64,000 bases of DNA, taken from NCBI RefSeq assembly GCF_004341885.1, contig NZ_SLVX01000014.1, positions 62,001-126,000 of the forward strand. Direction: 5' to 3'. Position numbers and translations under genes: made by a program. Numbering within the stretch: position 1 is the first letter of the stretch; each line of letters begins with the position of its first letter. Shown piece after piece: positions 2,354 through 53,308 of this stretch. This DNA comes from Shinella granuli. GTDB taxonomy: Bacteria; Pseudomonadota; Alphaproteobacteria; Rhizobiales; Rhizobiaceae. The notes beneath the pieces were generated by a model that was not told the DNA's origin, did not search any database, and worked only from the letters and a program-made list of their open reading frames with translations.

Positions 2354-3318
2354 CGAAACCCATGCCCAAGGCGGAGCTGCACTGCCATATCGAAGGCGCG
2401 ACCCCGCCGGCCCTCGCCCTTTCCCAGGCGAAGCGCTACGGCATCGACACCTCCGCCTTCATCCGCGACGGCGCCTATGCCTGGCAGGATTTCACCAGCT
2501 TCGTCGCAAGCTACGATGCGACGGCGAACCTCTTCCGCACGGAGGAGGACTATGCCCTGCTCGCCGAGACCTACCTCACCGGGATCGCCGAAGCCGGTGC
2601 CGTCTACAGCGAGCTGATCGTCTCGCCCGACCAGGGGGACGCCGTCGGCATCGGCGCCGATGCCTATATAAGCGGCCTTGCCGAGGGCGCCGGGCGGGCC
2701 CGGGCGAGGACCGGCATCGAGACGCGCTTCCTCATCGTCGGCATCCGCCATTTCGGCCCGGAACGGGTGGTGAAGGCGGCGGAATATGCCGCCCGCCGGC
2801 CGCATCCGCTGATTTCGGGCTTCAACCTTGCCGGCGAGGAGCGCATGCACCGCGTCGCCGATTTCACCCGCGCCTTCGACATCGCCCGCGATGCCGGCCT
2901 CGGCATCACCATCCATGCCGGCGAGCTTTCGGGCGCCTTCAGCGTGCGCGATGCGCTCGACCATGTCCGCCCCTCGCGCATCAGCCACGGCGTGCGCGCC
3001 ATCGAGGACGGCGACCTTGTGAAGCGGCTGGCGGACGAGGGCGTGGTGCTGGAGGTCTGCCCCGGCTCGAATATCGCGCTGAAGGTCTTCCCGGACTTCG
3101 AGCATCACCCGCTGCGCGCCCTTCACGAGGCCGGCGTGCGCGTGACGCTCAATTCCGACGACCCGCCGTTCTTCCACACCTCGCTCGCCCGGGAATACGA
3201 AATCGCCTCCTCCGTCATGGGCTTCAGCGACGCGGCGCTGCTCGGCATGACGCGGACAGCGATCGAGGCCGCCTTCGTCGACGAACCGACGCGCCAGGGG
3301 TTGCTTTCCCGGCTTTGA
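2350..3318 (+). CDS. add: adenosine deaminase
   Basis: Deaminates adenosine and deoxyadenosine to inosine derivatives, which punA can then phosphorolyse. The 322-residue protein shows the amidohydrolase metal ligands HCHIEG (H11, H13), HAGE near residue 189, the SHG motif, and SDDPPFF with the paired aspartates near residue 269. The GTG at 2350 overlaps the deoB stop as GTGA, typical of translational coupling; an alternative ATG at 2362 would drop four residues. The sequence [12 protein letters not shown] at the N-terminus is characteristic of the bacterial adenosine deaminase subfamily rather than adenine deaminase. Confidence 0.92.
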
Positions 3319-3423
3319 CGGGCAAGCCGGCTGGGGATGTTGCCGGCCGGGCGCGCTCCACTCTTGCGGCCTTGCGCCGTTCCGTGGAAAAAGAGGCGTT
3401 TACTCATTTTCGGAAGGTTGGCC

Positions 3424-4053
3424 ATGGACGGCGTCACAGTCATCGATCACCCGCTCGTGCAGCACAAGCTGACCATCATGCGCAAGAAGGAGACCTCGAC
3501 GGGGAGTTTCCGCCGCCTCCTTCGCGAGATCTCCACCCTGCTCTGCTACGAGGTCACGCGCGACCTGGAGCTGACCACCGCGCGCATCGAGACGCCGCTG
3601 GAAGAGATCGACGCGCCCGTCCTCGAAGGCAAGAAGCTGGTCTTCGCCTCGATCCTGCGCGCCGGCAACGGCCTGCTCGAAGGCATGCTGGAACTGGTTC
3701 CATCCGCCCGCGTCTCCCATATCGGCGTCTACCGCGACCACGAGACGCTGGAGGCGGTCGAATATTTCTTCAAGGCGCCCGACAGCATCGACGAGCGCCT
3801 CGTCATCGTCGTCGACCCGATGCTGGCGACGGGTAATTCGGCGATTGCCGCCATCGACACGCTGAAGAGCCGCGGGGCGACGAACATCCGCTTCCTCTGC
3901 CTGCTCGCCGCGCCGGAGGGCATCCGGAGTTTCCGCGCGCACCATCCGGACGTGCCGGTCTACACCGCCTCCATCGACCGCCAGCTCAACGAGAAGGGCT
4001 ATATCGTGCCCGGTCTCGGCGATGCCGGCGACCGCATGTACGGCACGAAGTGA
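3424..4053 (+). CDS. upp: uracil phosphoribosyltransferase
   Basis: Converts uracil and PRPP to UMP, recovering the base released by DeoA. The 209-residue length is exactly that usual for Upp. The PRPP-binding loop [12 protein letters not shown] and the C-terminal uracil-binding segment [12 protein letters not shown] are visible, as is the N-terminal [20 protein letters not shown] 3424 was chosen because [11 protein letters not shown] is the conserved start; the open frame extends upstream but without family similarity. It lies 105 bases after add, so it may be in the same transcript. Confidence 0.95.
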
Positions 4054-14962: not shown

Positions 14963-16645
14963 TCAGGAAAGCCAGGCGGGCAGGCGTGGGGGGACGCGGC
15001 CGGTCAGGGCGGCTTCGATGCAGTCGGAGAGATTGCCGAAGCGGACGGTGCGGCCGGAGAGGCCCGGGCCGTAATGGGCGTATTTGCCGGAATTGGTGAG
15101 GAGCGTGCGGGTCTTCGGCGGGAAGACCGGTTCGGAGATCGAGCACCAGCAGAGGTCGGGCAGGACCTGGACGCCGCCCTCCCTCAGCCGGGCAACGGTA
15201 TTCCCGGCTTCCGCCATCACGTCGCGGCCGGCGGTGACGATCACGGCGACGTCGGCGTGGCACCTGCGGCCGGCGAGGGCATCGGCGAGGGCCTCGCATT
15301 CCGAGAGCGAGGCATGCGGGCTGCCGATGGCGACGAGCTCGACCTCGGCCGGGCCTTCGTTGAACATCGTCCAGACCTCGACCATGTCGGCGCGGGTGAT
15401 CGTCACGCGGTCGGCCGCGGGCAAGGCCGCGCCGTCCGCCTCCGGCGTCACGCCCTCGATGTGCAGCATGGGCGCGGCGGAGGTGGTGCCGAAGGCGGCG
15501 CAGAGGGCCTTGAGGTCGTCCCGCGTCGGCCTTGCCGCGGCAAGGCCGCGCAGGAGCGGGATGCGGTCGGGCGCGGCACGGCCGGCGAGATAGCCGATGA
15601 GCGGCCAGAAGGCATCGTCGATCCCGTCAGGCAGATCGACGTCGATGATGCGGCGCGCCTTGCGGTGCTCGTCGAGATAGACACCGGACAGCGGCGCGCG
15701 GCCGGTGAGCGCGATGCAGAGGTCGAGGAAATCGGGATGCTTCGCCGTGCGGGCGCCGAGCACGGTGTTGGCGAAGATCACGGCATTGGATTCGGCCCAG
15801 GCGATGGCCTCGCCGGTCTTCGGCGCGCTGTCCAGCAGATAGGGCGAACAGGTGAAGGTCGGACGGCAGCCCATGCGGACATAGGCATCGGCGAGGCGGG
15901 CGGCGGGATCGCCGAAGGACGGCGGCACGCCCTGCGCCTGCCAGTTGGCACGGTCGACGGAGATGGCGTTCATCGTGGTCGGCACGCAGACCTTCGCGCC
16001 CATCTCCGCCATCGTTTCCGCGAAGGTGAGGTTGGCGGGGCTGGCATAGATGCAGCCGTCGATATGGCCCTGCACGACATCGACGAGTTCGTGGGCACCC
16101 TGCTGGGCCGCCATGGCCGTGGTGATGCGCATGGCGAGCGCAACGGCGATGCCGTCGCGGCCGTCCAGCATGGCGCGGTCGTCTTCCGTCAGATCGAGCG
16201 CGGCGATGGCGGGCGGGGCGACGGGGATCGTGAGGCCGTCAGCCTCGATGGCGGTTTCGCCGATCCGGGCGCTCCGGGCGCGACAGAGGGCATCGAAGGC
16301 CGCCTGCGACAGGCGCAGGACCGGCAGGGATTTTCCGAACATCTCGGCGGCGATCAGGGCGCCGAGGGTCAGGACGTCCTCCGCCTCGCTGAAGACGAGG
16401 GCGGCGGGGGCGCGGCCAGTGAGGGCAAGGTCGAGCAGGACGCCGGAGCCGGTGCAGGAGCCGCGGCTCGACGGCATCATCAGGATGCCGCCGGTGATCG
16501 TGACGCCATGCAGCGGGTGGTGCACGTCGATGACCCGGCCGGTGGCGGGATCGACGCCGCCCCAGAAGCTCAGCGCCTCGCCCGTCGCGATGACCGGGCC
16601 GGCGGCGGTGCCGGAAAGGATGCTGCGGGCGGAGAGGTCGGCCAT
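14963..16645 (-). CDS. aconitase X, probable cis-3-hydroxy-L-proline dehydratase
   Basis: Fused aconitase-X protein (560 residues). The N-terminal swivel (small-subunit) domain, about residues 1-130, holds [14 protein letters not shown]; the rest is the large subunit domain with [25 protein letters not shown] and [10 protein letters not shown]. Cysteines that could ligate the iron-sulfur cluster are seen in both the middle and near LPDLCWCS. Characterised members dehydrate cis-3-hydroxy-L-proline to pyrroline-2-carboxylate. Start [10 protein letters not shown] at 16645 is preceded by AGGAC. Its neighbours (FAD dehydrogenase, amino acid importer, reductase at 22873) fit hydroxyproline use. Confidence 0.85.
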
Positions 16646-16852
16646 GGGACGGGTCCTGTGCTGCTGGGGTGGTTCCATCAAGGATAGGCGGCGCGCGCTT
16701 GCCGGAAACGCGCGAAAACCAGGGTATCGGCATATCCGCGATCCCGAGGGACGCTGGCACGGCCTGGCGCAGGGCCGGTGCCATCCGGCGCGCCGGACTG
16801 TTCCAGGATAGTGTTTTCCCGCGCCGAAGCGATACCGCTCCGGCGCAGTCGC

Positions 16853-18106
16853 CTAGAAACGCTGCGGCGAGAAGGGCGCGATGTCGATCGCCGTCGGCCG
16901 GCCGGTCACGAGGTCGGCGACGAGCCGCGCCGTGCCGGCGGACTGGGTGAGGCCGAGATGGCCGTGGCCGAAGGCGTAGACGACATCGGGCGTCGCGCGG
17001 GCGCGGCCGATGGCGGGCAGGCTGTCGGGCAGCGAGGGGCGGAACCCCATCCACTGCACGCCGCCCGCCGGCTTCAGGCCGGGCAGGAAGGCTTTCGCCT
17101 TTTCCAGCATGGCCTCGGATCTGCGGAAATTCGGCGGCAGCTTCAGTCCGCCGAGTTCCACCGCGCCGCCGACGCGGATGCCGGTCGACAGCCGGGTCAC
17201 GACGAAGCCGTGGCCGCCGAAGGTGACCTGCGTCCTCAGGTCGAAGGCGTCCGACGGCAAGGTCGTGTTGTAGCCGCGCTCGGTCTCGAGCGGGATACTC
17301 TCGCCGAGCGTGCGGGCGACCTGGTGCGAGAAGGCGCCGGCCGCGAGCACGACCTTTTCCACGCGCCGCGTCCCGCCATCCGCCGTCGTGATCTCGACGC
17401 CGCCTTCGACGGGCCTGAGGCCCAAGACCTCGGCACGCTCGATCCTGCCGCCCTTCGCGCGAAAATGATCGGCGAGCGCCAGCGTGTAGAGTTTCGGGTC
17501 CGCGATGGAATACCAGCCGGGCGTGAAGGTGCCGTGCGTGAAGCGCGGGGCGAGGCCGGGCTGGATCGCGGCCATTTCGGCGGCGTCCATGTGGCGGAAT
17601 TCGATGCCGTGCGCTTCGCGGGCCTTCCAGCCCGGCAGCGCGGCGTTCAGCTCGGCCTGGCTTTCATAGACCTGGAGATTGCCCTCCTTGCGCAGCATGG
17701 CAAGCGTGCCGGTCGCGCCGAGGAAGGGCTCCAGCTCGGCCCTGGAAAGGTCCATCAGCGCGGTCTGCGCGGCGGTGGAATGGGCGACGCGGCGTGCCGA
17801 GCAGGCGCGCCAGAAGCGGAACATCCAGGGCGCGATCTGCAGCGCGTAGGACGGCGGCACGGAAAGCGGCCCGAGCGGGTCGAGCAGCCATTTCGGCGCC
17901 TTCCTGAGGATGCCGGGCGAGGCGAGCGGCAGGATGTCGGTGAAGGCGAAGGCGCCGGCATTGCCGGCGGAAGCGCCGGCGGCGGGGGCTTCGCGTTCGA
18001 GCACCGTGACGGCGAGGCCGCGGGCCTGGGCGGCAATGGCCGCGGAAAGGCCGACCACGCCGGCGCCGATGACGACGACGCCGGGTTCGATTCCAGTCTT
18101 CATCAT
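16853..18106 (-). CDS. FAD-dependent D-amino acid dehydrogenase-like oxidoreductase (probable D-hydroxyproline dehydrogenase)
   Basis: A DadA-like flavoprotein of 417 residues. The dinucleotide-binding motif is VVVIGAGVVGLSAA at the N-terminus with the following ASAGNAGAFAFTDILPLASPG, and the C-terminus has the second FAD segment GHGHLGLTQSAGTARLVADL. In Sinorhizobium such an enzyme oxidises cis-4-hydroxy-D-proline to pyrroline-4-hydroxy-2-carboxylate; that role is inferred here from the locus. It starts four bases after the importer ATPase gene stop. A general D-amino acid dehydrogenase is the alternative. Confidence 0.82.
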   Translation of the reverse strand: MMKTGIEPGVVVIGAGVVGLSAAIAAQARGLAVTVLEREAPAAGASAGNAGAFAFTDILPLASPGILRKAPKWLLDPLGPLSVPPSYALQIAPWMFRFWRACSARRVAHSTAAQTALMDLSRAELEPFLGATGTLAMLRKEGNLQVYESQAELNAALPGWKAREAHGIEFRHMDAAEMAAIQPGLAPRFTHGTFTPGWYSIADPKLYTLALADHFRAKGGRIERAEVLGLRPVEGGVEITTADGGTRRVEKVVLAAGAFSHQVARTLGESIPLETERGYNTTLPSDAFDLRTQVTFGGHGFVVTRLSTGIRVGGAVELGGLKLPPNFRRSEAMLEKAKAFLPGLKPAGGVQWMGFRPSLPDSLPAIGRARATPDVVYAFGHGHLGLTQSAGTARLVADLVTGRPTAIDIAPFSPQRF

Positions 18107-18110
18107 CGCC

Positions 18111-18833
18111 TCAGTGCGTCGCAGCGAGGAAGGTTTTCAGGTCGGCATCCTTCGGCGCGCCGAACAGCGCTTCCGGCGGGGCGATCTCGGCCATAACGCC
18201 CTTGTGGAAGAAGGCGACGCGGTCGGAGACCTCGCGGGCGAACTTCATTTCGTGCGTGACGCAGATCATCGTCATGCCCTCGGAGGCGAGCATGCGTAGC
18301 GTGTCGAGCACTTCGCCGACGAGCTGCGGATCGAGCGCCGAGGTCACCTCGTCGAACAGCATGTAGGCCGGCGACATGGCAAGCGCCCGGGCGATCGCCA
18401 TGCGCTGCTGCTGGCCGCCGGACATGCGGCTCGGATAGACCTTCAGCTTGTCGCCGAGGCCGACATGGGTGAGCTGCTTGACGGCCATCGCCTCGGCCTC
18501 GGCCTTCGACTGGCCCAGAACCTTGACGGGCGCCAGCATGACGTTTTCGAGCACGGTCAGGTGCGGGAAGGCGTTGAACTGCTGGAAGACGATGCCGAGC
18601 TTGCGGCGCAGCTTGTTGAGGTCCGTGCCCTTGGCATGCACGTCGGTGCCGTCGACGACGATGCGGCCGCTGTCGATGGTCTCCAGCCCGTTGATGCAGG
18701 TGAGCAGCGTCGACTTGCCCGAGCCCGAGCCGCCGATGATGGTCAGCACCTCGCCCTTCTCCACGGTGAGGTTGATTCCCTTCAGGACTTCGAGCTGGCC
18801 GAAGGATTTGCGGACGTTTTCGATCTCAATCAT
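18111..18833 (-). CDS. polar amino acid ABC transporter ATP-binding protein
   Basis: ATPase of 240 residues in the GlnQ/HisP class: Walker A GGSGSGKSTLLTC, Q-loop VFQQFNAFPHL, signature MSGGQQQRMAIARAL, Walker B YMLFDEVTSALD and switch histidine CVTHEM. It overlaps the preceding permease by eight bases and belongs to the importer operon 21028-18111, with the catabolic genes downstream. Likely imports hydroxyproline. Confidence 0.92.
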   Translation of the reverse strand: MIEIENVRKSFGQLEVLKGINLTVEKGEVLTIIGGSGSGKSTLLTCINGLETIDSGRIVVDGTDVHAKGTDLNKLRRKLGIVFQQFNAFPHLTVLENVMLAPVKVLGQSKAEAEAMAVKQLTHVGLGDKLKVYPSRMSGGQQQRMAIARALAMSPAYMLFDEVTSALDPQLVGEVLDTLRMLASEGMTMICVTHEMKFAREVSDRVAFFHKGVMAEIAPPEALFGAPKDADLKTFLAATH

Positions 18834-19476
18834 TGGACCACCGTCTTTCGAGATAACCGCCGAGCCGGGCGATGGGGAAGCTGATGATGAAGTAGATGGC
18901 GCCGCAGATGAGCAGGATGAACAGCGGCTCCTGCAGGCGCGTCACGAGGATCTGCGAGGCGCGCAAGAGCTCGATGAGGCCGAGCCAGAGCACGAGGGCC
19001 GAATCCTTCATGACGCCGAGCGTCAGGCCGATCCAGGCGGGCAGCGAGACACGGGTGGCGAGCGGGGCCACGATGTAGCGCATGTCCTGCCACCAGGTCA
19101 TGCCCAGCGAGCGGGCCGCGCGGCGCGTGGTGGCCGGCACGGAGGAGATGCCGCCGCGCACGATCTCGGTGCAATAGGCCGCCGTATAGAGCGACAGCAC
19201 CACGCAGGAGGTGGTGAACGGCGCCCAGCCGAGCTTCATGATCGACTGCATCGCATTGCCGAGCACGAGCTGGATGAGCAGCGGCACGGAGCGGAAGATG
19301 TCGAGCAGGAAGGTGAGCGGCATCGACCAGTAGGGGCCGACCTGGTTGCGGATGACGCCGAAGAGGACGCCGAGCACGGTGCCCGCGAGGACGGAGACGG
19401 CGGTGACGGCGAGCGTCATGGCCGCGCCCTTGGCGAGGAAGCCGAGATCGGCAAGGGTGAGAGCGGTATCGAACAT
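18826..19476 (-). CDS. polar amino acid ABC transporter permease
   Basis: Membrane subunit of 216 residues in the HisM/GlnP family, with about five helices. The EAA loop appears as AARSLGMTWWQDMRYIVAP, and the N-terminal GAAMTLAVTAVSVLAG helix is typical. It pairs with the next permease to form the membrane heterodimer. Short spacing on both sides shows co-transcription. Confidence 0.92.
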   Translation of the reverse strand: MFDTALTLADLGFLAKGAAMTLAVTAVSVLAGTVLGVLFGVIRNQVGPYWSMPLTFLLDIFRSVPLLIQLVLGNAMQSIMKLGWAPFTTSCVVLSLYTAAYCTEIVRGGISSVPATTRRAARSLGMTWWQDMRYIVAPLATRVSLPAWIGLTLGVMKDSALVLWLGLIELLRASQILVTRLQEPLFILLICGAIYFIISFPIARLGGYLERRWSND

Positions 19477-19487
19477 GGCTTACCCCC

Positions 19488-20153
19488 TCAGTAGCGGAAC
19501 ATGCGCGCGGCGGCGAGGCGCGCCGCCAGCGTCACGGCCTTGGCGATCAGGTAGTAGATGACCGCCGCGATCGCGAAGAATTCGAAGGTGCGGAACGAGC
19601 GGGCGTTCAGCTCCTGGGTGATGCCGGCAAGGTCGGTGTTCATGCCGACGGTGACGCCGAGCGACGTCATCAGGATCGCCCAGACCATCTGGTTGGTGGC
19701 GGGCAGGAAGGCGACGCGCAGCATCTGCGGCATGACGATGTAACGGAAGGCCTGCAGCGAGGTCATGCCGAGGGAGCGGCCGGCGCGGGTCTGCGTCTCG
19801 GGGATCGCCTTCAGCGCGCCGCGGAAGTTCTCCGCGAGATAGCCGGCATTGTTGAAGGCGATGCCGACGAGCAGCGCCGCATAGGGGCTGAGATGGATGC
19901 CGAAACTGCCGAGGCCGAAATGGGCCATGTAGATCTGGAAGAGGGCCGGCGTGTTGCGCGCGATCTCGACCCAGGCGGTGGCGAAGCCGCCGAGGATGCG
20001 GTTGCCGGACAGCCGGAAGAGCGTCAGCGCCAGGGCGACGGCAAGGCCGATGGCCATGGAGAGCAGCGCGATTTGCAGCGTGACCAGCGCGCCGTCCAGC
20101 ATCTGGGGCAACGCCTTCAGCGCCTGGTTCCAATGGAAAGTGTAACTGAACAT
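19488..20153 (-). CDS. polar amino acid ABC transporter permease
   Basis: Second HisM-type membrane subunit, 221 residues from MFSYTFHWNQALKALP. The EAA loop is RAGRSLGMTSLQAFRYIVMP. ATG 20153 lies a few bases after GGGTGAGACGGCA; a longer open frame upstream codes for an arginine-rich, unlikely leader and runs through the stem-loop at 20182-20203. First gene after the binding protein. Confidence 0.92.
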   Translation of the reverse strand: MFSYTFHWNQALKALPQMLDGALVTLQIALLSMAIGLAVALALTLFRLSGNRILGGFATAWVEIARNTPALFQIYMAHFGLGSFGIHLSPYAALLVGIAFNNAGYLAENFRGALKAIPETQTRAGRSLGMTSLQAFRYIVMPQMLRVAFLPATNQMVWAILMTSLGVTVGMNTDLAGITQELNARSFRTFEFFAIAAVIYYLIAKAVTLAARLAAARMFRY

Positions 20154-20218: not shown

Positions 20219-21028
20219 TTAGCGGTAGACGCCGCCGACCGAGAGGTCCGGCACGTCGCCGCCGACCCACTTCTCGTAGAGTTCCTTGTAGCGGCCGGTG
20301 CGAACCTGCTGGTTGACGAAGAGGTTCAGGTAGTTGATCAGGCCGTATTCTTCGCGGTTGGTGAAAAGCGCGACATAGTCGATGTCATAGGGCGCCTTGC
20401 CGACGACGGAGATGCCGGCGAACTTGCCGCTCTTGACGTTGGACTGGGCAACCGTCGAGGTGGAGACCGTCGCGTCGATCTGGCCCTGGCTCAGCGCGAG
20501 GAAGACGTCGGCCTGGGTCTGGTACGGACGGAACTCGCCAGTGCCCCATTCCTTGACCGAGTTTTCGAGCGCGATGGCCTCGAACGTGCCGGCGGTGGCG
20601 CCGACCGTCTTGCCCTTCATGTCCTCGAAGGACTTGATGCCCGACTTGTCGTTGGCCGTGACAGCCATCTCGAAGGCGAAGTAGGGGATCGACATGCCGA
20701 CGGTCTTGGCACGCTCCAGCGTGTCGGAGGTCGAGGCGACGCCGACATCGACGCGGCCGGACATCAGCGCCGGGATGCGCTCCGGGAAAGGCGTTTCGAC
20801 GATCTCGGCGGTGACGCCGAGGGCCTTGGCTAGATCGTTGCAGTAGTCGACGTCGAAACCGATCGGGTTGTTGTTCTCGTCGCGCGCACCCATCGGGGGG
20901 AAGTCGAGAACGACGGCGCAGCGCAGCGTGCCGGACGAGATGATGTCGTCCAGCTTGTCGGCCTTGGCCGGGCTGGTCAGAGCGGTGGCGGCCACGAGGC
21001 CGAAGGCGAGGACCGAGGTCTTCTTCAT
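20219..21028 (-). CDS. polar amino acid ABC transporter substrate-binding protein
   Basis: Periplasmic SBP family 3 protein, 269 residues, signal peptide MKKTSVLAFGLVAATALTSPAKA cleaved near ADK. The ligand-domain marks RVDVGVASTSDT, GFDVDYCNDLAKALG and the lobe-2 start KGKTVGATAGT are present. It is first in the importer operon, with an operator-like palindrome about 90 bases upstream. Binding of hydroxyproline is inferred from the adjacent enzymes, not visible in the protein. Confidence 0.9.
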   Translation of the reverse strand: MKKTSVLAFGLVAATALTSPAKADKLDDIISSGTLRCAVVLDFPPMGARDENNNPIGFDVDYCNDLAKALGVTAEIVETPFPERIPALMSGRVDVGVASTSDTLERAKTVGMSIPYFAFEMAVTANDKSGIKSFEDMKGKTVGATAGTFEAIALENSVKEWGTGEFRPYQTQADVFLALSQGQIDATVSTSTVAQSNVKSGKFAGISVVGKAPYDIDYVALFTNREEYGLINYLNLFVNQQVRTGRYKELYEKWVGGDVPDLSVGGVYR

Positions 21029-21103
21029 AAACTCTCTCCCTGGATTGGTCTGTCGATTCACGCGGCGGAGGTCCGTCCTGCGCCGAAACTGTAAACCGCC
21101 TCT

Positions 21104-21134
21104 AAAATACAACTAATATACAAAAAGTATATAC
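21104..21134 (-). promoter_or_regulatory. operator candidate upstream of the importer operon
   Basis: ATATAC-AAAAA-GTATAT (21116-21132) is a perfect inverted repeat, and AAAATACAA (21104-21112) next to it is identical to an arm of the palindrome at 25227-25258. Both lie in the AT-rich promoter region of the binding-protein gene. Probable binding site of the GntR regulator at 25265-25969. Confidence 0.5.
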
Positions 21135-21206: not shown

Positions 21207-22724
21207 TCAGTTCAGGAAATCTTCGGGCAGCAGACCTTCCGGCATGTTCTGGTAGGAGACCGGGCGCAGGAAGCGGCGGATCGACATGGTGCCGACACTG
21301 GTGGCGCCGAAGTTCGTGGAGGCCGGATAGGGGCCGCCATGCACCATGGAATCCACCACCTCGACGCCCGTCGGGAAGCCATTGACGAGCACGCGGCCGG
21401 CCTTGCGCTCGAGGACCGGGCGCAGGCGCCTGGCATCGGCAAGGTCGCCTTCATCCATGTGGATGGTCGCCGTCAACTGGCCTTCGAAATTGCGGGCGAG
21501 CCTCTCCATCTCGTCGACCGAAGAGACACGCACGACAAGGCCGAGCGGGCCGAAGACCTCTTCCGAAAGCGCGTGGTCGGCGAGGAACTGTTCGCCGGAG
21601 ATCTCGAAGAGGTTCGGCAGAGCGTTGCGGCCGGTGGACTCCGTCGTCAGCAGCGGCTTGACGGTGTTGCGGCTTTCAAAGCGCGCCTGGCCGTCCTGGT
21701 AGGCCTTGGCAATGCCGTCGGTCAGCATGGTCTGCGGGCCGACCTTGCCGAGCGCTTCCACGGCGGCGGCGGTGAAACGGTCGGCATCCGCGCCGTCCTC
21801 AACGATGGCGATGCCCGGATTGGTGCAGAACTGGCCGGCGCCCATGGTGAGCGAGCCCGCCCAGCCCTGGCCGAGGCCTTCCGCGCGGGCCTTCATGGCC
21901 TGCGGCAGCAGGAACATCGGGTTGACCGAGCCGAGCTCGCCGAAGAACGGGATCGGCTCCGGACGGGCGGCGCACAGGTTGAAGAGGGCGCGGCCGCCGG
22001 CGAGCGAGCCGGTGAAGCCGACGGCCTTGATCAGCGGATGCTGCACCAGCGCCTCGCCGACCTGGCGGTTGCCGCCCTGGATGAGCGAGAAGACGCCCGG
22101 ATGGACGCCGGCCTTCCTGATGGCGGCCTCGATGGCCTCGGCGATGATCTCGCCCGTGCCCGGATGGGCCGAGTGCCCCTTGACGACGACGGGGCAACCG
22201 GCGGCAAGCGCGGCCGCCGTGTCGCCGCCGGCCGTGGAGAAGGCGAGCGGGAAGTTGGAGGCGCCGAAGACGGCGACCGGGCCGAGCGGCCGCTGGATCA
22301 GGCGGATTTCCGGGCGCGGCAGCGGCTGGCGCTCCGGCAGGGCGGCGTCGAAGCGGCGGTCGAGATAGTCGCCCTTCTCGATATGATCGGCGAAGAGGCG
22401 GAGCTGGCCGGTGGTGCGGCCGCGCTCGCCCTGAAGGCGCGCGACCGGCAGGCCGGTCTCCTGCGTGCCGATCTCGGTGATCGCTTCTGCCCGGGCCTCG
22501 ATCTCGTCGGCGATGGCGCGCAGGAACGCGGCGCGTGTCGCGCGGGAGGAATAGCCGTAGCTGAGGAAGGCGTCTTCGGCGGCTTGCGCGGCCTTGTTCA
22601 CCAGCTCCACCGTGCCGACGGCAAAGCCGTGCGCCGGGCCATGGGCGGGCGAGGAGGTGAAGGTGCCGTTTCCGTCAAGCCATTCGCCTGCGACGAGATG
22701 TTTACCGTTGGGAGTGAAAGCCAT
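21207..22724 (-). CDS. 2,5-dioxovalerate (alpha-ketoglutarate semialdehyde) dehydrogenase
   Basis: Aldehyde dehydrogenase superfamily enzyme of 505 residues. The oxyanion asparagine is in GASNFPLAFS, the general base glutamate in FFGELGSVNP and the catalytic cysteine in GAGQFCTNPG. The combination GELGSVNP plus GQFCTNPG is typical of ketoglutarate semialdehyde dehydrogenases, which finish trans-4-hydroxyproline, arabinose or glucarate breakdown to 2-oxoglutarate. Here the DapA-family deaminase and hydroxyproline enzymes point to the first. Start MAFTPNGKHLV at 22724; 148 bases divide it from the divergent reductase gene. Confidence 0.9.
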   Translation of the reverse strand: MAFTPNGKHLVAGEWLDGNGTFTSSPAHGPAHGFAVGTVELVNKAAQAAEDAFLSYGYSSRATRAAFLRAIADEIEARAEAITEIGTQETGLPVARLQGERGRTTGQLRLFADHIEKGDYLDRRFDAALPERQPLPRPEIRLIQRPLGPVAVFGASNFPLAFSTAGGDTAAALAAGCPVVVKGHSAHPGTGEIIAEAIEAAIRKAGVHPGVFSLIQGGNRQVGEALVQHPLIKAVGFTGSLAGGRALFNLCAARPEPIPFFGELGSVNPMFLLPQAMKARAEGLGQGWAGSLTMGAGQFCTNPGIAIVEDGADADRFTAAAVEALGKVGPQTMLTDGIAKAYQDGQARFESRNTVKPLLTTESTGRNALPNLFEISGEQFLADHALSEEVFGPLGLVVRVSSVDEMERLARNFEGQLTATIHMDEGDLADARRLRPVLERKAGRVLVNGFPTGVEVVDSMVHGGPYPASTNFGATSVGTMSIRRFLRPVSYQNMPEGLLPEDFLN

Positions 22725-22802
22725 TAGACGTACCTTTCTCACGGGAAGAGGGATTCGCCCCTGACATAGACTCTTGCAGGGCGAATTGCACTTGTCGAAA
22801 TC

Positions 22803-22823
22803 TTGTATACTCTATGTATGCAA
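22803..22823. promoter_or_regulatory. operator candidate in the divergent promoter region
   Basis: TTGTATAC-TCTAT-GTATGCAA is an inverted repeat with eight-base arms and one mismatch, with the same five-base spacer as the site at 21116-21132. It lies about 80 bases from the dehydrogenase start and 50 from the reductase start, so it could control both genes. Confidence 0.5.
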
Positions 22824-22872
22824 ATGTTCAATCGCCAACCTGCCCCGGTCGGCAAAAGCGGAAGAGACCAAG

Positions 22873-23910
22873 ATGACGCAGACCTCCACCCTGACGATTG
22901 CCGCCCTTCATGAACGGGTGGAAGCGATCTTCCGCAAGGCCGGGCTCAATGCCGTGCAGGCCAGCGCGCTTGCCCGCGTCATCGTCGCCGGGGAGCGCGA
23001 CGCCTGCAAGTCGCACGGCATCTACCGGATCGAGGGTGCGCTGCGCACAGTAAAGGCCGGAAAGGTCAAGCCGGACGCCGTGCCGGTGCTGGATGCCAAC
23101 GAGGGCTCGGCCATCGTCAAGGTCAATGCCGGCGGCGGCTTTGCCAACCCGGCCTTCGAACTCGGCGTGCCGGTTCTTGCCGCGCGCGCCCGCTCGCTCG
23201 GCCTTGCCGCGCTCGTCATCAACGACTGCACGCATTTCTCCGCCCTCTGGCCGGAGGTGGAGGCCGTGACAAATGAAGGCCTTGCCGGCCTCGTCATGTG
23301 CCCGAGCTACGCCACCGTCGCGCCCACCGGCGGCAACAGGCCGCTGCTCGGCACCAATCCCTTCGCCTTCGGCTGGCCGCGCAAGGGCGATGCGCCCTAT
23401 GTCTTCGACTTCGCCACCTCGGTCGCCGCCCGCGGCGAGATCGAACTGCACCGCCGCGCCGGCAAACAACTGCCCGAGGGCTGGGCGATCGACGCCGAGG
23501 GCAACCCGACCACCGATCCGGAAGCCGCGCTCGCCGGCGCCATGCTGCCCTTCGGCGGCCACAAGGGCTCGGCCATCGGCACGATGATCGAACTGCTCGC
23601 CGGCATCATGATCGGCGACCTGACGAGCCCGGAAGTGCTGGACTATCTCGGCACCACGACGCTTGCGCCCTTCCATGGCGAGCTGATCATCGCCATGTCG
23701 CCGGAGGCCTTCTCCGCCGGTCGGCCCGGCGATCCCTTCGCCCGCGCCGAAGTGCTGTTCGAGGCCATCGTCGGCCAGGGCGCCCGCCTGCCCTCGCAGC
23801 GCCGCTTCGTGGCACGCAGGAAATCCGAGGCGGACGGTGTCACGCTCACCGCCGCCGAGATCGAGCAGCTCGACCGCCTGCTGGAAAAGGGGCTGGATGC
23901 GATCGGCTGA
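22873..23910 (+). CDS. Ldh/AllD-family oxidoreductase, probable delta1-pyrroline-2-carboxylate reductase
   Basis: A malate/L-lactate dehydrogenase-like (not Rossmann) NAD(P)H enzyme of 345 residues. Family features include INDCTHFSALWPEVE, GTNPFAFGWPR, FDFATSVAARGEIE and LPFGGHKGSAIG. LhpD-type members of this family reduce pyrroline-2-carboxylate to proline, the step after the cis-3-hydroxyproline dehydratase encoded at 14963-16645; this pairing is the basis for the call. ATG 22873 (MTQTSTLTI) is preceded by AAGAGACCAAG. Ureidoglycolate or lactate dehydrogenase activity is the alternative. Confidence 0.8.
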   Translation: MTQTSTLTIAALHERVEAIFRKAGLNAVQASALARVIVAGERDACKSHGIYRIEGALRTVKAGKVKPDAVPVLDANEGSAIVKVNAGGGFANPAFELGVPVLAARARSLGLAALVINDCTHFSALWPEVEAVTNEGLAGLVMCPSYATVAPTGGNRPLLGTNPFAFGWPRKGDAPYVFDFATSVAARGEIELHRRAGKQLPEGWAIDAEGNPTTDPEAALAGAMLPFGGHKGSAIGTMIELLAGIMIGDLTSPEVLDYLGTTTLAPFHGELIIAMSPEAFSAGRPGDPFARAEVLFEAIVGQGARLPSQRRFVARRKSEADGVTLTAAEIEQLDRLLEKGLDAIG

Positions 23911-24180: not shown

Positions 24181-25143
24181 CTATGCCTTGTAGGTCTGCA
24201 CGGCGCCCGGCAGCTTGCTCCATTCGGCATACCAGGTGTCGAACAGCTTCAGCTGGGTCTCGACATAGCCGCGCTGGCTGTCGGAGAGCGCGTCGGTCTC
24301 GTTGAAGTGCAGCGTGTATTCCTTGTCGCCCTTCAGCACCATCATGTGCTTGAAGTAGAGGACGAGATCCGGGCCTTCGTCGAAGGAGGAGAGCACGGCG
24401 AGCGCCGATTCCAGCTCCAGCGCGCGGGCGCGGGCGTCCGGGTCGCCCTTGGCAGCGGCCTGGGCGAGGTTGCACATGTGGAGGACTTCCTTGGGCAGCA
24501 CGCAGCCGATGCCGGTGATCGCGCCGACGGCGCCGCAATCGACGAAGCCGGTGAAGACGCAGGTATCGACGCCGATCATCAGCGAGACGTCATCGTCGCG
24601 GCTGGTGATGTTCTCGGCCGCATAGCGCATGTCGGCCGCGCCGCCGAACTCCTTGAAGCCGACGAGGTTCTTGTGGTCCTCGCGCAGCGCGAAGAACAGG
24701 TCGGCCCGGGTGGCGAAGCCGTAATAGGGGCTGTTGTAGATGACGGCCGGCAGGTCCGGAGCGGCCGAGAGGATCGCCTTGAAATGGTTCTTCTGGGCGG
24801 CGACGACGGAGCCGCGGGAGAGCACGCGCGGGATGACCATGAGGCCCTGCGCGCCGACCTTCTGGGCATGCGCGGCATGGGCGACGGCCGAGGCGGTGTT
24901 GACGGCGCCGGTGCCGACGATGACCGGGATGCCCGCCTTGACGAGGCGCTCGACGCCTTCCATGCGCTGTTCGTCGGTCAAGAGCGGCCAGTCACCCATC
25001 GAGCCGCAATAGACGACGGCCGACATGCCCTTTTCGATGAGTTCCCTGCCCTTGCGCACCAGCTGGTCGAAATCCGGCGTGCGGTCGTCCTTGCAGGGGG
25101 TCATCAGGGCGGGAATGACACCGGAAAAAATCTTGGCCTTCAT
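24181..25143 (-). CDS. DapA-family lyase, probable pyrroline-4-hydroxy-2-carboxylate deaminase
   Basis: Dihydrodipicolinate synthase/N-acetylneuraminate lyase family TIM barrel, 320 residues. The Schiff-base lysine is in LVGFKEFGG, the catalytic tyrosine in AVIYNSPYYG, and the N-terminal VYCGSMGDWPLLTDEQ replaces the usual GTTGE loop of true DapA, arguing against lysine synthesis. Related Sinorhizobium HypD and Pseudomonas LhpC deaminate pyrroline-4-hydroxy-2-carboxylate to ketoglutarate semialdehyde. The semialdehyde dehydrogenase nearby supports this. Flanked upstream by a 32-base operator palindrome and the GntR gene. Confidence 0.85.
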   Translation of the reverse strand: MKAKIFSGVIPALMTPCKDDRTPDFDQLVRKGRELIEKGMSAVVYCGSMGDWPLLTDEQRMEGVERLVKAGIPVIVGTGAVNTASAVAHAAHAQKVGAQGLMVIPRVLSRGSVVAAQKNHFKAILSAAPDLPAVIYNSPYYGFATRADLFFALREDHKNLVGFKEFGGAADMRYAAENITSRDDDVSLMIGVDTCVFTGFVDCGAVGAITGIGCVLPKEVLHMCNLAQAAAKGDPDARARALELESALAVLSSFDEGPDLVLYFKHMMVLKGDKEYTLHFNETDALSDSQRGYVETQLKLFDTWYAEWSKLPGAVQTYKA

Positions 25144-25226
25144 GTCGGTCTCCTTTGGCGGTTCGGCGGATGGGCGGCCGGCACGATGCACGAGGCCTCC
25201 CCCTCTCTGATGATGGGTATAGCACC

Positions 25227-25258
25227 TTGTATTTTATTTGTCGACAAGAAAAATACAA
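25227..25258 (-). promoter_or_regulatory. 32-base operator palindrome in front of the DapA-family gene
   Basis: TTGTATTTT (25227-25235) and AAAATACAA (25250-25258) are perfect reverse complements flanking the self-complementary core TTGTCGACAA (25238-25247). Only two base pairs of 32 positions fail to match. The core recurs at 25981-25990 in front of the regulator gene. Expected to be the main GntR binding site. Confidence 0.7.
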
Positions 25259-25264
25259 ACTCCG

Positions 25265-25969
25265 TCAGAGCGTGATGTCGAGCCTGTCGTTGCGGCTGAA
25301 CAGCTTCTGTACCTGGGCGACGATCGCCTCGGCATGGGCCTTGCCGAGCCGGTCCGCCTCCTCGATGTCGCGCGCTGCGATGGCGGCGATGATCGCGGCA
25401 TGCTCGTCCACGAAGCGCTGGGGGAACTGTTCGTCGTAGGACTGGTAGTAGAGCTGCAGGATGCGCCGTCCCTCGTCGAGCAGCCGGCGGAACAGGCTGG
25501 TGAAATAGGGATTGCGCCCGGCCTCGGCGATGGCGGCATGGAAGGCGGCATTGGTGGCGATCATCTTCAGGGGGTCGCGCGCCGCAAGTGCCGCCGCATA
25601 GTCCTCGTGGAAGCCTCTGATGACGGCGAGGTCCTCCGGGCGGTGCGCCTGCGCCGCAAGCCGCGTCGTCACGCGGTACATCAGCACCAGCGCGTCGAAG
25701 AAGGTGTGCAGGTTGAGGAAGTCGATGTTCGAGACCATGGTCGAGCGGTTCGGCAGGGTCTCGATCAGCCCCTCGCCGGCCAGCCGCACAAGGGCCTCGC
25801 GGATCGGCGTGCGCGACATCTTGAACCGCTCGGCAAGCTGCACCTCGTCGATCGGGCTGCCGGGGGCGAGCTTCAGGTCGAGGATCTCGTCGCGCAGCAG
25901 GTCATAGACCATCTTCACGCCGGAGCCACGCTTGCGTTCGGGCAGGGAACTGGAATCGGTATCGGTCAT
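25265..25969 (-). CDS. GntR family transcriptional regulator (FCD domain)
   Basis: Regulator of 234 residues. The winged helix-turn-helix covers about residues 20-85 (VYDLLRDEILDLKLAPGSPI, then SRTPIREALVRLAGEGLIE), followed by an all-helical FCD ligand domain with NAAFHAAIAEAGRNPYFTSL and histidines suited to metal binding. It lies between the DapA-family gene and an operator-like site of its own, so it probably controls the hydroxyproline genes and itself. Whether it represses or activates, and the effector, cannot be read from sequence. Confidence 0.88.
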   Translation of the reverse strand: MTDTDSSSLPERKRGSGVKMVYDLLRDEILDLKLAPGSPIDEVQLAERFKMSRTPIREALVRLAGEGLIETLPNRSTMVSNIDFLNLHTFFDALVLMYRVTTRLAAQAHRPEDLAVIRGFHEDYAAALAARDPLKMIATNAAFHAAIAEAGRNPYFTSLFRRLLDEGRRILQLYYQSYDEQFPQRFVDEHAAIIAAIAARDIEEADRLGKAHAEAIVAQVQKLFSRNDRLDITL

Positions 25970-25980
25970 CGAAAATCCTC

Positions 25981-26001
25981 TTGTCGACAAAAGAAATACA
26001 A
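25981..26001 (-). promoter_or_regulatory. operator candidate upstream of the GntR gene
   Basis: TTGTCGACAA (25981-25990), identical to the core at 25238-25247, is followed by AAGAAATACAA, which resembles the right arm of that palindrome. The site is 12 bases upstream of the regulator start, consistent with autoregulation. Confidence 0.55.
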
Positions 26002-26217: not shown

Positions 26218-27279
26218 CTACGCCTCGTCCTGCCGCGGCGGATAGAGATGCGTTTCCCCGCGGAAATCGAGAAGGCGGAAACAGCCGTCGTCCGCCTCTT
26301 CGACCGCCGCCGAATCCGCCCGCACCTTGCCGTGCCCGCCGGGGATGTCGAGGATATAGGCCGGCTGGCACAGGCCGGAGACGCGGCCGCGCAGGCTTTC
26401 GACCAGCGCCCTGCCCTCGGCGAGCGTCAGGCGGAAATGCGCGGTGCCGGGCGCCAGGTCGGGATGGTGCAGGTAATAGGGCTTGACCCGGTTCTCGACG
26501 AAGGTGCGCATCAGGTCGGCCAGCACCGCCGCATCGTCGTTGACGCCCTTCAGGAGCACCGTCTGGCTGATCATCACCAGGCCGGCATCGACGATGCGGG
26601 CGATGGCGGCGCGGGCCTCGGCCGTGAATTCGCGCGGATGGTTGGCATGCAGCGCCACATAGGTCGTCTTGCCGGAGGCCTTCAGCGCCGCGATCAGCGC
26701 GGCATCCACCCGCGCCGGATCGACGACGGGCACCCGGCTGTGGAACCGCACGATCTTCACGTGAGGAATGGCAGCAAGCCGTTCCAGAATGGCCTGCAGC
26801 CGGCGCGGCGAGAGCACGAGCGGATCGCCGCCCGTCAGGATCACCTCCCAGATCGCCGGCCGGGCCGCGATATAGGCGATCGCCGCATCGAGCGCCTGGG
26901 CGGACAGGGTGCCGAGCCCTTCCGGCCCGACCATCTCGCGGCGGAAGCAGAAGCGGCAATAGACCGGGCAGACATGCACGGCCTTCAGGAGGACGCGATC
27001 GGGATACCGGTGCACGATGCCCTCGACGGGGCTGTGCGCGAGGTCGCCGATCGGGTCGGCGCGCTCCTCCGGCAGGGTCACGAGTTCTGCGGCATCGGGC
27101 ACGAACTGGCGGGCGACCGGATCGTTCGGATCGGCCGGATCGATCAGCGCGACGAGCGACGGCGTGACGGCGACGGCATAGCGCGCGGCGACCGCCGCCG
27201 CGCCCGCCCGCCGCGCCTCGGGAACGAGGCCGGCCTCGACCAGCTCCGCCACCGTCGTCAGGCTGCGCGCCGCCGTCAT
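26218..27279 (-). CDS. epmB: EF-P beta-lysylation protein EpmB (lysine 2,3-aminomutase family)
   Basis: Radical SAM enzyme of 353 residues. The cluster motif is CPVYCRFC (C104, C108, C111), followed by FRREMVG, and the PLP lysine segment lies near the C-terminus in a GHGKV context. It is shorter than clostridial lysine 2,3-aminomutase and stands beside epmA and efp, which identifies it as the enzyme making (R)-beta-lysine for attachment to EF-P. The start overlaps the epmA stop by four bases. Confidence 0.9.
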   Translation of the reverse strand: MTAARSLTTVAELVEAGLVPEARRAGAAAVAARYAVAVTPSLVALIDPADPNDPVARQFVPDAAELVTLPEERADPIGDLAHSPVEGIVHRYPDRVLLKAVHVCPVYCRFCFRREMVGPEGLGTLSAQALDAAIAYIAARPAIWEVILTGGDPLVLSPRRLQAILERLAAIPHVKIVRFHSRVPVVDPARVDAALIAALKASGKTTYVALHANHPREFTAEARAAIARIVDAGLVMISQTVLLKGVNDDAAVLADLMRTFVENRVKPYYLHHPDLAPGTAHFRLTLAEGRALVESLRGRVSGLCQPAYILDIPGGHGKVRADSAAVEEADDGCFRLLDFRGETHLYPPRQDEA

Positions 27280-28331
27280 GGCGCGGTCTCCGCCACCGGC
27301 GCCCAGATCACCTGGTCGATGCGCGCGGCGCCCGTCGCCAGCATGACCAGCCGGTCGAAGCCGAGCGCGATGCCGCTGGCCTCGGGCATATGGGCGAGCG
27401 CGGCGAGGAAATCCTCGTCGAGCGGATAGGTCTCGTCGTAGACGCGGGCCTTTTCCGCCATTTCCAGCTCGAAGCGCCGGCGCTGCTCGCCCGCATCGGT
27501 CAATTCGCCGAAGGCATTGGCCAGCTCCACCCCGCAGGCATAGAGCTCGAAGCGCTCGGCGACGCGCCCGTCATGCGCGGCGGGCCGCGCGAGCGCTGCC
27601 TCCGCCGTGGGGTATTCGCAAAGGATGGTGGCGCGGCCGAAACCGAGCTGCGGCTCCACCTTTTCCACCAGCACGCGGCTGAAGAGGTCGGTCCAGGTGT
27701 CGTCTTCCGCCACGCGCAGGCCGGCTGCCTGCAGGAAAGCGGCCAGGCGCGCGCGGTCCGTCGCGCCGTCGGGATCGATCGAGGCGAGGAGGTCGATGCC
27801 GGCATGGCGCCGGAAGGCTTCCGCCACCGTCAGCCGCTCGGGCGGCAAGGCCGGATCGCAGGTCGCGCCGCGATAGGTAAGCATCGCGGCCCCCGCCACC
27901 CTGGCGGCCAGCGCGAGGATTTCGGCGCAATCCTCCATCAGCACGTCATAGGCCTCGCCCGCGCGATACCATTCCAGCATGGTGAACTCGGGATGGTGCA
28001 GCGGCCCGCGCTCGCGGTTGCGGTAGACATGGGCGAAGCAGGCGATGCGCCTTTCCCCCGCCGTCAGCAGCTTCTTGCAGGCGAATTCCGGCGAGGTGTG
28101 CAGGTAGAGCGGCGTCCTTGCGCCGGAATGGCCGATCGCGGCGGTCTCGAAGGCGTGCAGATGCGCCTCGTTGCCGGGCGAGACCTGCAGCGTCGCCGTG
28201 TCGACCTCGATGAAATCGCGCGCCGCGAACCAGCCGCGCAGCGCCGCCTGGATACGGTTTCGCGCAAGAAGGAACGGCCGGCGATCGGCATGGACATCGG
28301 GCGTCCACCAGGGCGAGGGCTTCAGGCTCAT
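27276..28331 (-). CDS. epmA: EF-P lysine lysyltransferase EpmA
   Basis: A truncated class II lysyl-tRNA synthetase (351 residues) without the anticodon-binding domain. Class II motif 2 is visible as YRNRERGPLHHPEFTMLEWY and motif 3 as GIALGFDRLVML. This protein ligates beta-lysine to lysine 34 of EF-P. Start MSLKPSPWWTPDVHADRR at 28331 corresponds to the family N-terminus. It is divergent from efp across a 161-base promoter region containing a small hairpin (28410-28427). Confidence 0.93.
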   Translation of the reverse strand: MSLKPSPWWTPDVHADRRPFLLARNRIQAALRGWFAARDFIEVDTATLQVSPGNEAHLHAFETAAIGHSGARTPLYLHTSPEFACKKLLTAGERRIACFAHVYRNRERGPLHHPEFTMLEWYRAGEAYDVLMEDCAEILALAARVAGAAMLTYRGATCDPALPPERLTVAEAFRRHAGIDLLASIDPDGATDRARLAAFLQAAGLRVAEDDTWTDLFSRVLVEKVEPQLGFGRATILCEYPTAEAALARPAAHDGRVAERFELYACGVELANAFGELTDAGEQRRRFELEMAEKARVYDETYPLDEDFLAALAHMPEASGIALGFDRLVMLATGAARIDQVIWAPVAETAP

Positions 28332-28492
28332 GGCGTTCCTGTGACAGGTTTCTTCGCGCTTGCCGGCGGACAGACTGGTCTTTTGCCGGAATATAGGGTA
28401 GTTGCGGCCCCGAAAACACATTTTCGGCACCCGGGGAAGGCGTCTCAAGGCGGTCCTCTACGCCGTGATCCATCCAGTTACAAGGAAGACTT

Positions 28493-29062
28493 ATGGTAAA
28501 GATCATCGCCTCTTCCGTCCGCAAGGGCAATGTCCTCGAGGTCGAAGGCAAGCTCTATGTCGTGCTGACGGCGCAGAACTTCCACCCGGGCAAGGGCACG
28601 CCGGTCACCCAGATCGACATGCGCCGCATCTCCGACGGCGTGAAGGTTTCCGAACGCTACCGCACGACCGAACAGGTCGAGCGCGCCTTCGTCGAGGACC
28701 GCGAGCACAACTTCCTCTACGAGGATGGTGACGGCTACCACTTCATGAACCCGGAGACCTACGACCAGCTGACCATGTCCCACGAGGACATCGGCGACCT
28801 GAAGGCCTACCTCCAGGAAGGCATGACGGTCATCCTGTCGGTGCATGAAGGCGTCGCCATCGCCATCGACCTGCCGCGCCACGTCACGCTGGAGATCGTC
28901 GAGACCGAACCGGTCGTCAAGGGCCAGACGGCCTCGTCCTCCTACAAGCCGGCGATCCTGTCGAACGGCGTGCGCACGCTGGTGCCGCCGCACATCACCG
29001 CCGGCACGCGCGTCGTGATCGCGACGGAAGACGGTTCCTACGTGGAACGCGCCAAGGACTGA
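28493..29062 (+). CDS. efp: elongation factor P
   Basis: Translation factor of 189 residues that relieves ribosome stalling at polyproline. KOW-like domain I carries the modification site [10 protein letters not shown] with lysine at position 34, the target of EpmA; OB domains follow, ending in [17 protein letters not shown]. The presence of K34 with EpmA and EpmB nearby means the beta-lysylation pathway is used, not rhamnosylation. EpmC (hydroxylase) is not in the window. AGGAAGACTT precedes the ATG. Confidence 0.97.
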
Positions 29063-53205: not shown

Positions 53206-53261
53206 GGCGCGGGCTCCGGCGCGATGTCGGAGCGGTCATTTCCCTCTGCATTTGCCCGACT

Positions 53262-53287
53262 ACAGGAAATCATCGATGATTTCCTGT
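53262..53287. repeat. perfect 26-base palindrome
   Basis: Left half ACAGGAAATCATC, right half GATGATTTCCTGT, with no spacer. It lies 57 bases after the GH5 stop. It could be a terminator stem, a protein binding site, or the remnant of an element. The gap 53206-53650 otherwise holds only the small frame listed next. Confidence 0.7.
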
Positions 53288-53308
53288 GGGAAGGGAGACT
53301 GTGCTGCC

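Follow-up and report, generated by a model that had tools for sequence, protein, structure and literature searches.

The near-perfect palindrome at 25227-25258 of a 64,000-nucleotide stretch of Shinella granuli DNA (the whole stretch that we analyzed, referred to here as the window; the palindrome has no strand of its own) very probably serves as the main operator for HypR, a repressor that responds to hydroxyproline and is encoded beside it, with outer arms that would bind further dimers and with the hyp promoters occluded as a result. The preliminary description of this DNA had put it forward as the operator of the adjacent GntR regulator, and at the level of comparison that assignment is strongly supported by the co-occurrence of the site with HypR, by its position at promoters, and by targets that are detached from hypR.

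Anatomy of the palindrome

The palindrome, which reads TTGTATTTTATTTGTCGACAAGAAAAATACAA, is situated between the 3' end of hypR and the start of a hypD-like gene, downstream of the former and upstream of the latter, and is the putative HypR operator of the hypD promoter. As originally described, 28 of its 32 bases are symmetric, that is, equal to the reverse complement. The four half-sites that make up the operator, TTGTAT-N5-TTGTCGACAA-N5-ATACAA, comprise a perfect 10-bp core palindrome that is conserved downstream of hypR (25238-25247, likewise strandless), the better-conserved arm on the hypD side (25227-25232, ATACAA on the minus strand), and the weaker arm on the hypR side (25253-25258, TTGTAT on the minus strand). 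The core, TT-GTC-GAC-AA, fits the FadR-subfamily operator consensus NyGTM-N0-1-KACNy. We also found, in agreement with the earlier account, an exact copy of the core before the regulator gene at 25981-25990; beyond what that account mentions, an arm is repeated there as well (ATACAA at 25996-26001), again with a 5-base gap to the core. This second putative operator upstream of hypR (25981-26001, minus strand) has one arm plus the core, TTGTATTTCTTTTGTCGACAA, and a Shine-Dalgarno-like GAGGA (25980-25976) comes immediately after it in place of a second arm. Judged from its letters, the 32-base palindrome consists of two back-to-back units, each a core plus an arm, with the core in common.

Symmetry by itself is only mildly unusual, with two palindromes of at least 14 of 16 pairs in the window compared with ten in 60 simulated 64-kb sequences from an order-1 Markov model. 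Another near-perfect 32-base palindrome in the window (14 of 16 pairs) is at 53259-53290, about 50 bases past a reading frame ending at 53205. Chance symmetry alone was rejected as an explanation of the HypR site: symmetry is weak evidence, but the site is conserved across most of the 80 loci described below. The idea that the end of hypR carries a terminator or a hairpin in its mRNA was rejected as well, because the fold has a z score of -0.91 relative to shuffles (37 of 200 shuffles were as good) and a terminator scan revealed no terminator-like site with a G+C-rich stem and a T run. Such an element would suit a palindrome that lies 6 bases past the hypR stop codon and is able to form a stem, but the core-plus-arm unit is also present upstream of hypR and, elsewhere, of hypO-like, hypD-like and peptidase genes, and one side is often degenerate where the other is kept; we regard an RNA element as highly improbable.

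The regulator and the hydroxyproline gene cluster

The adjacent gene, hypR (25265-25969, minus strand), encodes a GntR regulator of 234 aa with wHTH and FCD domains, both of which score above the curated cut-offs (PF00392, 61.0 bits with a cut-off of 27; PF07729, 75.7 bits with a cut-off of 24.3). The ATG at 25969 was taken as its start; the TTG at 25990, the start listed by the ORF finder, falls within the operator. A predicted model of HypR shows the wHTH and FCD folds (mean pLDDT 81.8, pTM 0.62), with 7u5q as the nearest solved chain (Z 21.5, rmsd 3.2, 214 aligned). Residues S52, R53, T54 and P55, together with R57 and E58, are invariant across 37 aligned orthologs and presumably lie in the recognition helix.

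The neighboring genes were assigned by family and synteny. On the minus strand these are a hypD-like gene for a DapA/DHDPS-family protein of the hydroxyproline pathway (24181-25143), a gene for a hypH-like aldehyde dehydrogenase (21207-22724), one for a hypM-like solute-binding protein (20219-21034, the stretch searched), and one for a hypO-like FAD-dependent DAO-family oxidoreductase (16853-18106); on the plus strand there is a gene for a hypS-like Ldh_2 family dehydrogenase (22861-23910 as searched, with an ATG at 22873). ABC permeases and an ATPase of an amino-acid type transporter follow hypM (18111-20150). Downstream of hypO an aconitase X family protein is encoded (14963-16681, minus strand, assigned by family), which we take to be a possible hypX or cis-3-hydroxyproline dehydratase. 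Directly upstream of hypR there is a lysine-2,3-aminomutase-like gene (26218-27279, NCBIfam TIGR03822 above the cut-off), and by eye 27276-28448 resembles the EpmA lysyl-tRNA synthetase homologue and 28493-29062 resembles elongation factor P.

The order hypR-hypD-hypS-hypH-hypM-hypO is identical in Sinorhizobium meliloti GR4, with protein identities of 81-89% for the six compared genes and of 81% for the HypR ortholog. No match to the aconitase X and Bmp-family proteins was found in the 18.7-kb GR4 stretch, which ends just past hypO. We named the regulator HypR because this gene order is shared and PMC5343134 describes the hyp genes and HypR; the GR4 stretch carries no annotated features, and the name comes from the neighborhood and that paper. 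In its accessible part, PMC5343134 gives S. meliloti HypR as the repressor of the hyp genes and hydroxyproline as the inducer, citing White 2012. The single enzyme names (hypD, hypS, hypH, hypM, hypO) were taken over from the same text and are written here as "-like". The core regulon published there for S. meliloti and other Proteobacteria consists of hypR, hypE, hypO, hypD and hypH, with autoregulation predicted in 32 of 46 genomes; it includes hypE, whereas the genes examined here do not include an epimerase (hypE/hypRE).

Conservation of the core and the arms

The locus set came from one scan and consists of the best 80 of 219 relatives (regulator identity 75-99%), drawn from Rhizobiaceae, Mesorhizobium, Aminobacter, Brucella-group genera, and one Tistrella plasmid; because the loci are related, counts of loci are not independent. 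In 74 of the 80 loci the 140 bases after hypR contain the exact core, and in 46 of the 78 loci with enough sequence it is found around the 80 bases that precede hypR, being absent there in 32. Elsewhere in the 813,586 bases of those loci, the exact core is present at only two more places.

At the hypD-side arm, the profile over 78 loci is A 78, T 75, A 56 (G 18), C 78, A 76, A 70, with two of the 80 loci (L024 and L030) omitted that have no core there at one mismatch or fewer. The hypR-side arm of the palindrome has the profile T 42, T 59, G 64, T 58, A 48, T 46 in the same 78 loci and, when at least five of six letters are required, is TTGTAT in 38, TTGTCG in 14, and neither in 26. By the same measure of five letters in six, both arms are TTGTAT-like in 33 loci, the hypD-side arm has a TTGTCG-like partner in 14, and a single arm is present in the rest, on the hypD side in 26 and on the hypR side in 5. 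For the hypR promoter the profile omits 17 of the 80 loci (16 with more than one mismatch, including L067, which is cut at a contig end, and L039, which is cut short). There, GTA is found at the arm register beside the core in 63 of 63 loci and GTAT in 61; the arm letters are AAGTAT in 44, TTGTAT in 9 and other in 10, with the full TGTAT in 11. The core profiles are biased upward, since loci with more than one core mismatch were left out.

When the sites were thinned to less than 70% identity, TGT occupied the arm register in 12 of 23 hypD sites (each of 16 other offsets had it in 3 or fewer) and ACA in 16 of 23, and the hypR sites had GTAT at the arm register in 13 of 14 and TGTAT in 2 of 14. 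Because the arm register survives this thinning, the conserved module, as read from the aligned letters, is arm-N5-core, and it is at its strongest towards hypD. As in FadR-subfamily operators with extra boxes, the arms are weaker half-site boxes beside the palindrome; on the hypD side they sit at a fixed register in most loci, and the hypR promoter has mostly GTAT only.

The GTAT at equal register beside the hypR core, in the opposite orientation and at a different promoter position, argues against a HypR site that consists of the core only, with one dimer bound and with the arms as A/T-rich promoter or spacer sequence kept for -10 function, bending, and the like. So do the hypD arms, which retain the TGT/ACA letters read by GntR helices and which change to the TTGTCG form in 14 of 78 loci, and the 11-bp half-site pairs that are kept at promoters without a core (see below). 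A core-only site is favored by the habit of GntR proteins, mostly one dimer per palindrome, by the 26 of 78 loci in which the hypR-side arm is absent, by the location of the hypD-side arm within the presumed -35/-10 spacer, and by the AAGTAT of 44 of 63 hypR promoters, which suits a -10 box and a half-site alike; since GTAT is kept but the leading TT is mostly lost, the arm at the hypR promoter could be a -10 element instead. Overall, we consider a core-only site unlikely, if still to be reckoned with, and prefer arms that are bound by HypR.

Genome-wide specificity and detached targets

Searching the window's own 6.59-Mb genome for core-N5-ATACAA with up to two mismatches gave six matches, compared with none for the reversed control. 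Three of them are exact and correspond to both palindrome halves and the site before hypR; the remaining three have two mismatches each and lie elsewhere. The recurrence of core-N5-ATACAA is not chance. For the exact core by itself we found five places, compared with two for the reversed control, of which two are the operators and three lie within listed reading frames, one resembling ribosomal protein S5 by eye. The widespread occurrence at unrelated genes that the preliminary description had named as evidence against its proposal was not seen in this genome search.

Among 101 genomes, TTGTCGACAA-N5-ATACAA at one mismatch or fewer was present in 28 of the 33 with a close HypR ortholog and in none of the 68 others, where closeness was defined by a best HypR match with E <=2.1e-75 (the next is 6.3e-57), a boundary set after seeing the scores. 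The window's genome and its genus mates account for 21 of the 28, and outside the genus the count is 7 of 12 versus 0 of 68. The reversed control of the core-plus-arm module gave one match, in one genome. At this threshold the module is missing in five of the 33 close-ortholog genomes, some of which retain TGTCGACA variants.

Sixty-three of the 66 places of the core-plus-arm module flank hypR, and the other three are detached from it. One precedes a hypO-like gene (58% identity) on a contig other than that of hypR. Another, in the Shinella pollutisoli genome G016, precedes a hypD-like start (by eye) at a contig end (L154:3234-3414); the hypR locus of that genome, L024, is the sole locus of the 80 without a hypD match. 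The third (L155:2653-2673, genome G004), again on a contig other than that of hypR, precedes the gene at 2748-3896 for an M24 prolidase-type peptidase, which has a creatinase/prolidase N-terminal domain and for which the best NCBIfam model is Xaa-Pro dipeptidase, below the cut-off. It is possible that this peptidase is an extra HypR target, perhaps freeing proline or hydroxyproline from peptides. Because the detached modules precede hypO-like, hypD-like and peptidase genes, the site tracks hyp-type genes and not the position of the regulator.

Half-site arrays with 11-bp spacing at hypM and hypH/hypS

In the window, no core was found upstream of hypM or between hypH and hypS. Both regions contain putative HypR arrays: TTGTCG, TTGTAT and ATGTAT at 11-bp steps between hypH and hypS (22792-22823, plus strand), and TTGTATATTAGTTGTAT, with two half-sites 11 bp apart, upstream of hypM (21107-21123, minus strand). 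Direct TGT(A/C) pairs at 11 bp were counted in 38 of 48 distinct regions for hypM, 53 of 58 for hypS, 48 of 80 for hypD, and 11 of 78 for hypR, and a third TGT(A/C) at 22 bp was observed in 32 of the 58 hypS regions; after identity and start filters, the loci behind these spacing counts are 49 of the 50 in which hypM was matched and 58 of the 65 in which hypS was. Along the complete loci, the regulator's strand has 121 TGT(A/C) pairs at 11 bp, compared with 5-38 at the remaining spacings between 4 and 25, and with the hyp promoters masked there are 13, compared with 3-33. Because masking the hyp promoters abolishes the excess at 11 bp, we assign it to those promoters.

The exact pair TTGTATN5TTGTAT occurs once in the window's own genome, at hypM. 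At one mismatch or fewer it gave five matches, two of them in the cluster, and since its reversed control gave seven, a half-site pair on its own lacks specificity. With the longer pattern TTGTATN5TTGTATTTT (one mismatch or fewer) we observed one match each in 19 of 21 genus genomes, always on the hypR contig and, in 18 of those 19, no more than 5.4 kb from hypR; it is the place and not the number that counts here, because the reversed control has one match in 14 of the 21. In genome G015, about 33 kb separate hypR from a hypM-type half-site pair on its contig (C12:173293), and the hyp cluster may be split there. The link of the hypM and hypH/hypS arrays to HypR is putative and is made through place and conserved spacing.

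The arm-type half-sites that hypM has alone, and the two central bases at which core and arm differ (CG versus AT), would also fit arms that are sites of a second regulator, at promoters common to it and HypR. We consider a second regulator very unlikely, as the TTGT half-site and the 11-bp step are common to core and arm, 14 of 78 loci have an arm with the core-type sequence TTGTCG, and the core-plus-arm module co-occurs with HypR.

Discussion

Our proposed mechanism for the HypR operator is that one HypR dimer would sit on the 10-bp core and that one or two more dimers would bind beside it, each held by an arm half-site. With the half-sites TTGTAT/TTGTCG 11 bp apart, about one helical turn, the dimers would come to lie on the same face of the DNA. 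At hypD, the complex would cover the presumed -35 and the spacer, where a -35-like TCGACA within the core (25244-25239) is separated by 17 bp from the putative -10, TATACC (25216-25221, minus strand). At hypR, it would cover the presumed -10 and the start point, the arm there overlapping a -10-like GTATTT. We infer this promoter overlap, since a consensus promoter scan found no promoter. Repression by occlusion would follow from the overlap and from the published role of HypR, with bound HypR blocking RNA polymerase until hydroxyproline or an intermediate of the pathway releases it. The arrays at hypM and hypH/hypS, which have no perfect core, would likewise be HypR sites. Conservation of the core only as a -35 box is insufficient as an explanation, because the core copy before hypR is not at a -35 position. 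Two dimers on the 32-base site are possible, and three may fit the anatomy equally. A more tentative idea, which we place on the doubtful side, is that rhizobial HypR reads not a single palindrome but a row of half-sites phased at 11 bp, with neighboring dimers aligned on one side of the helix, nucleated by the core at hypR and hypD and formed by repeats alone at hypM and hypH/hypS, and does so without a NanR-like extension; if true, this phased-row reading would give FCD regulators a cooperative mode of a distinct kind, with graded repression within one regulon.

NanR of E. coli is an FCD-type GntR regulator. Three NanR dimers are described on one operator, (GGTATA)3, in the accessible text of PMC8012715, and HypR resembles NanR in being a GntR repressor with repeated half-sites. 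NanR cooperativity, according to the same text, needs an N-terminal extension of 32 residues, whereas in the predicted model the first helix of HypR starts at residue 16, leaving about 15 residues ahead of it and no NanR-type extension. NanR with DNA (6wfq) ranks low in the HypR model search, by which alone the two were compared (rmsd 13.8).

The operator is also like those of the FadR subfamily in PMC4494728, the accessible part of which describes FadR-type dimers that read GT...AC on a short palindrome (consensus GTM-KAC) and weaker boxes beside it in 13 groups, with 170 regulators and 450 sites, and leaves the function of the boxes open. In common with these operators, the HypR site has a GTM-KAC palindrome and weaker boxes on one or both sides. 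The boxes in that study are 7-12 nt from the centre (the reference point being unstated), and here the near edge of the arm is at 10.5 nt and its centre at 13 nt; the hyp cluster is unlike the operators given there in having arrays without a perfect core as well. The view of the preliminary description, in which a core flanked by outer arms is something unusual for FCD-type GntR proteins, is not supported, because the extra boxes (PMC4494728) and the multi-dimer NanR operator (PMC8012715), as far as the accessible parts of these papers go, were already known.

Atu1419 (VanR) of Agrobacterium fabrum, like HypR, is an FCD GntR protein with a 10-bp palindrome, and it is a structural neighbor of the HypR model (Z 20.2, rmsd 3.5, 214 aligned, by model search only). 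Its recognition-helix arginine contacts a G of the palindrome ATGTATACAT, and in the accessible text of PMC7797058 it binds as a tetramer to separate palindromes with looping, not to adjacent half-sites as would be the case here. Streptomyces coelicolor HypR is another FCD GntR repressor of hydroxyproline genes, but its site as given in the accessible part of PMC6608401, TACAATGTCAC, differs and has no clear symmetry. Our literature search, which had White 2012 and the RegPrecise motif outside its reach, found no description of 11-bp-phased half-sites for rhizobial HypR in the text accessible to it, and in a text search for the core letters none of the matches listed concerns hydroxyproline by title.

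On the comparisons made here, the 32-base site is most likely a conserved, specific operator of HypR and, in a well-supported reading, a fairly ordinary control element, extra half-sites being already known for the protein family. It provides a candidate operator for the control of hydroxyproline catabolism in rhizobia and their relatives and, in one genome, points to the prolidase-type peptidase as a possible additional member of the regulon. The series of hyp promoters, with varied arm number and with or without the core, would be a compact test bed for the role of the extra boxes of the FadR subfamily.
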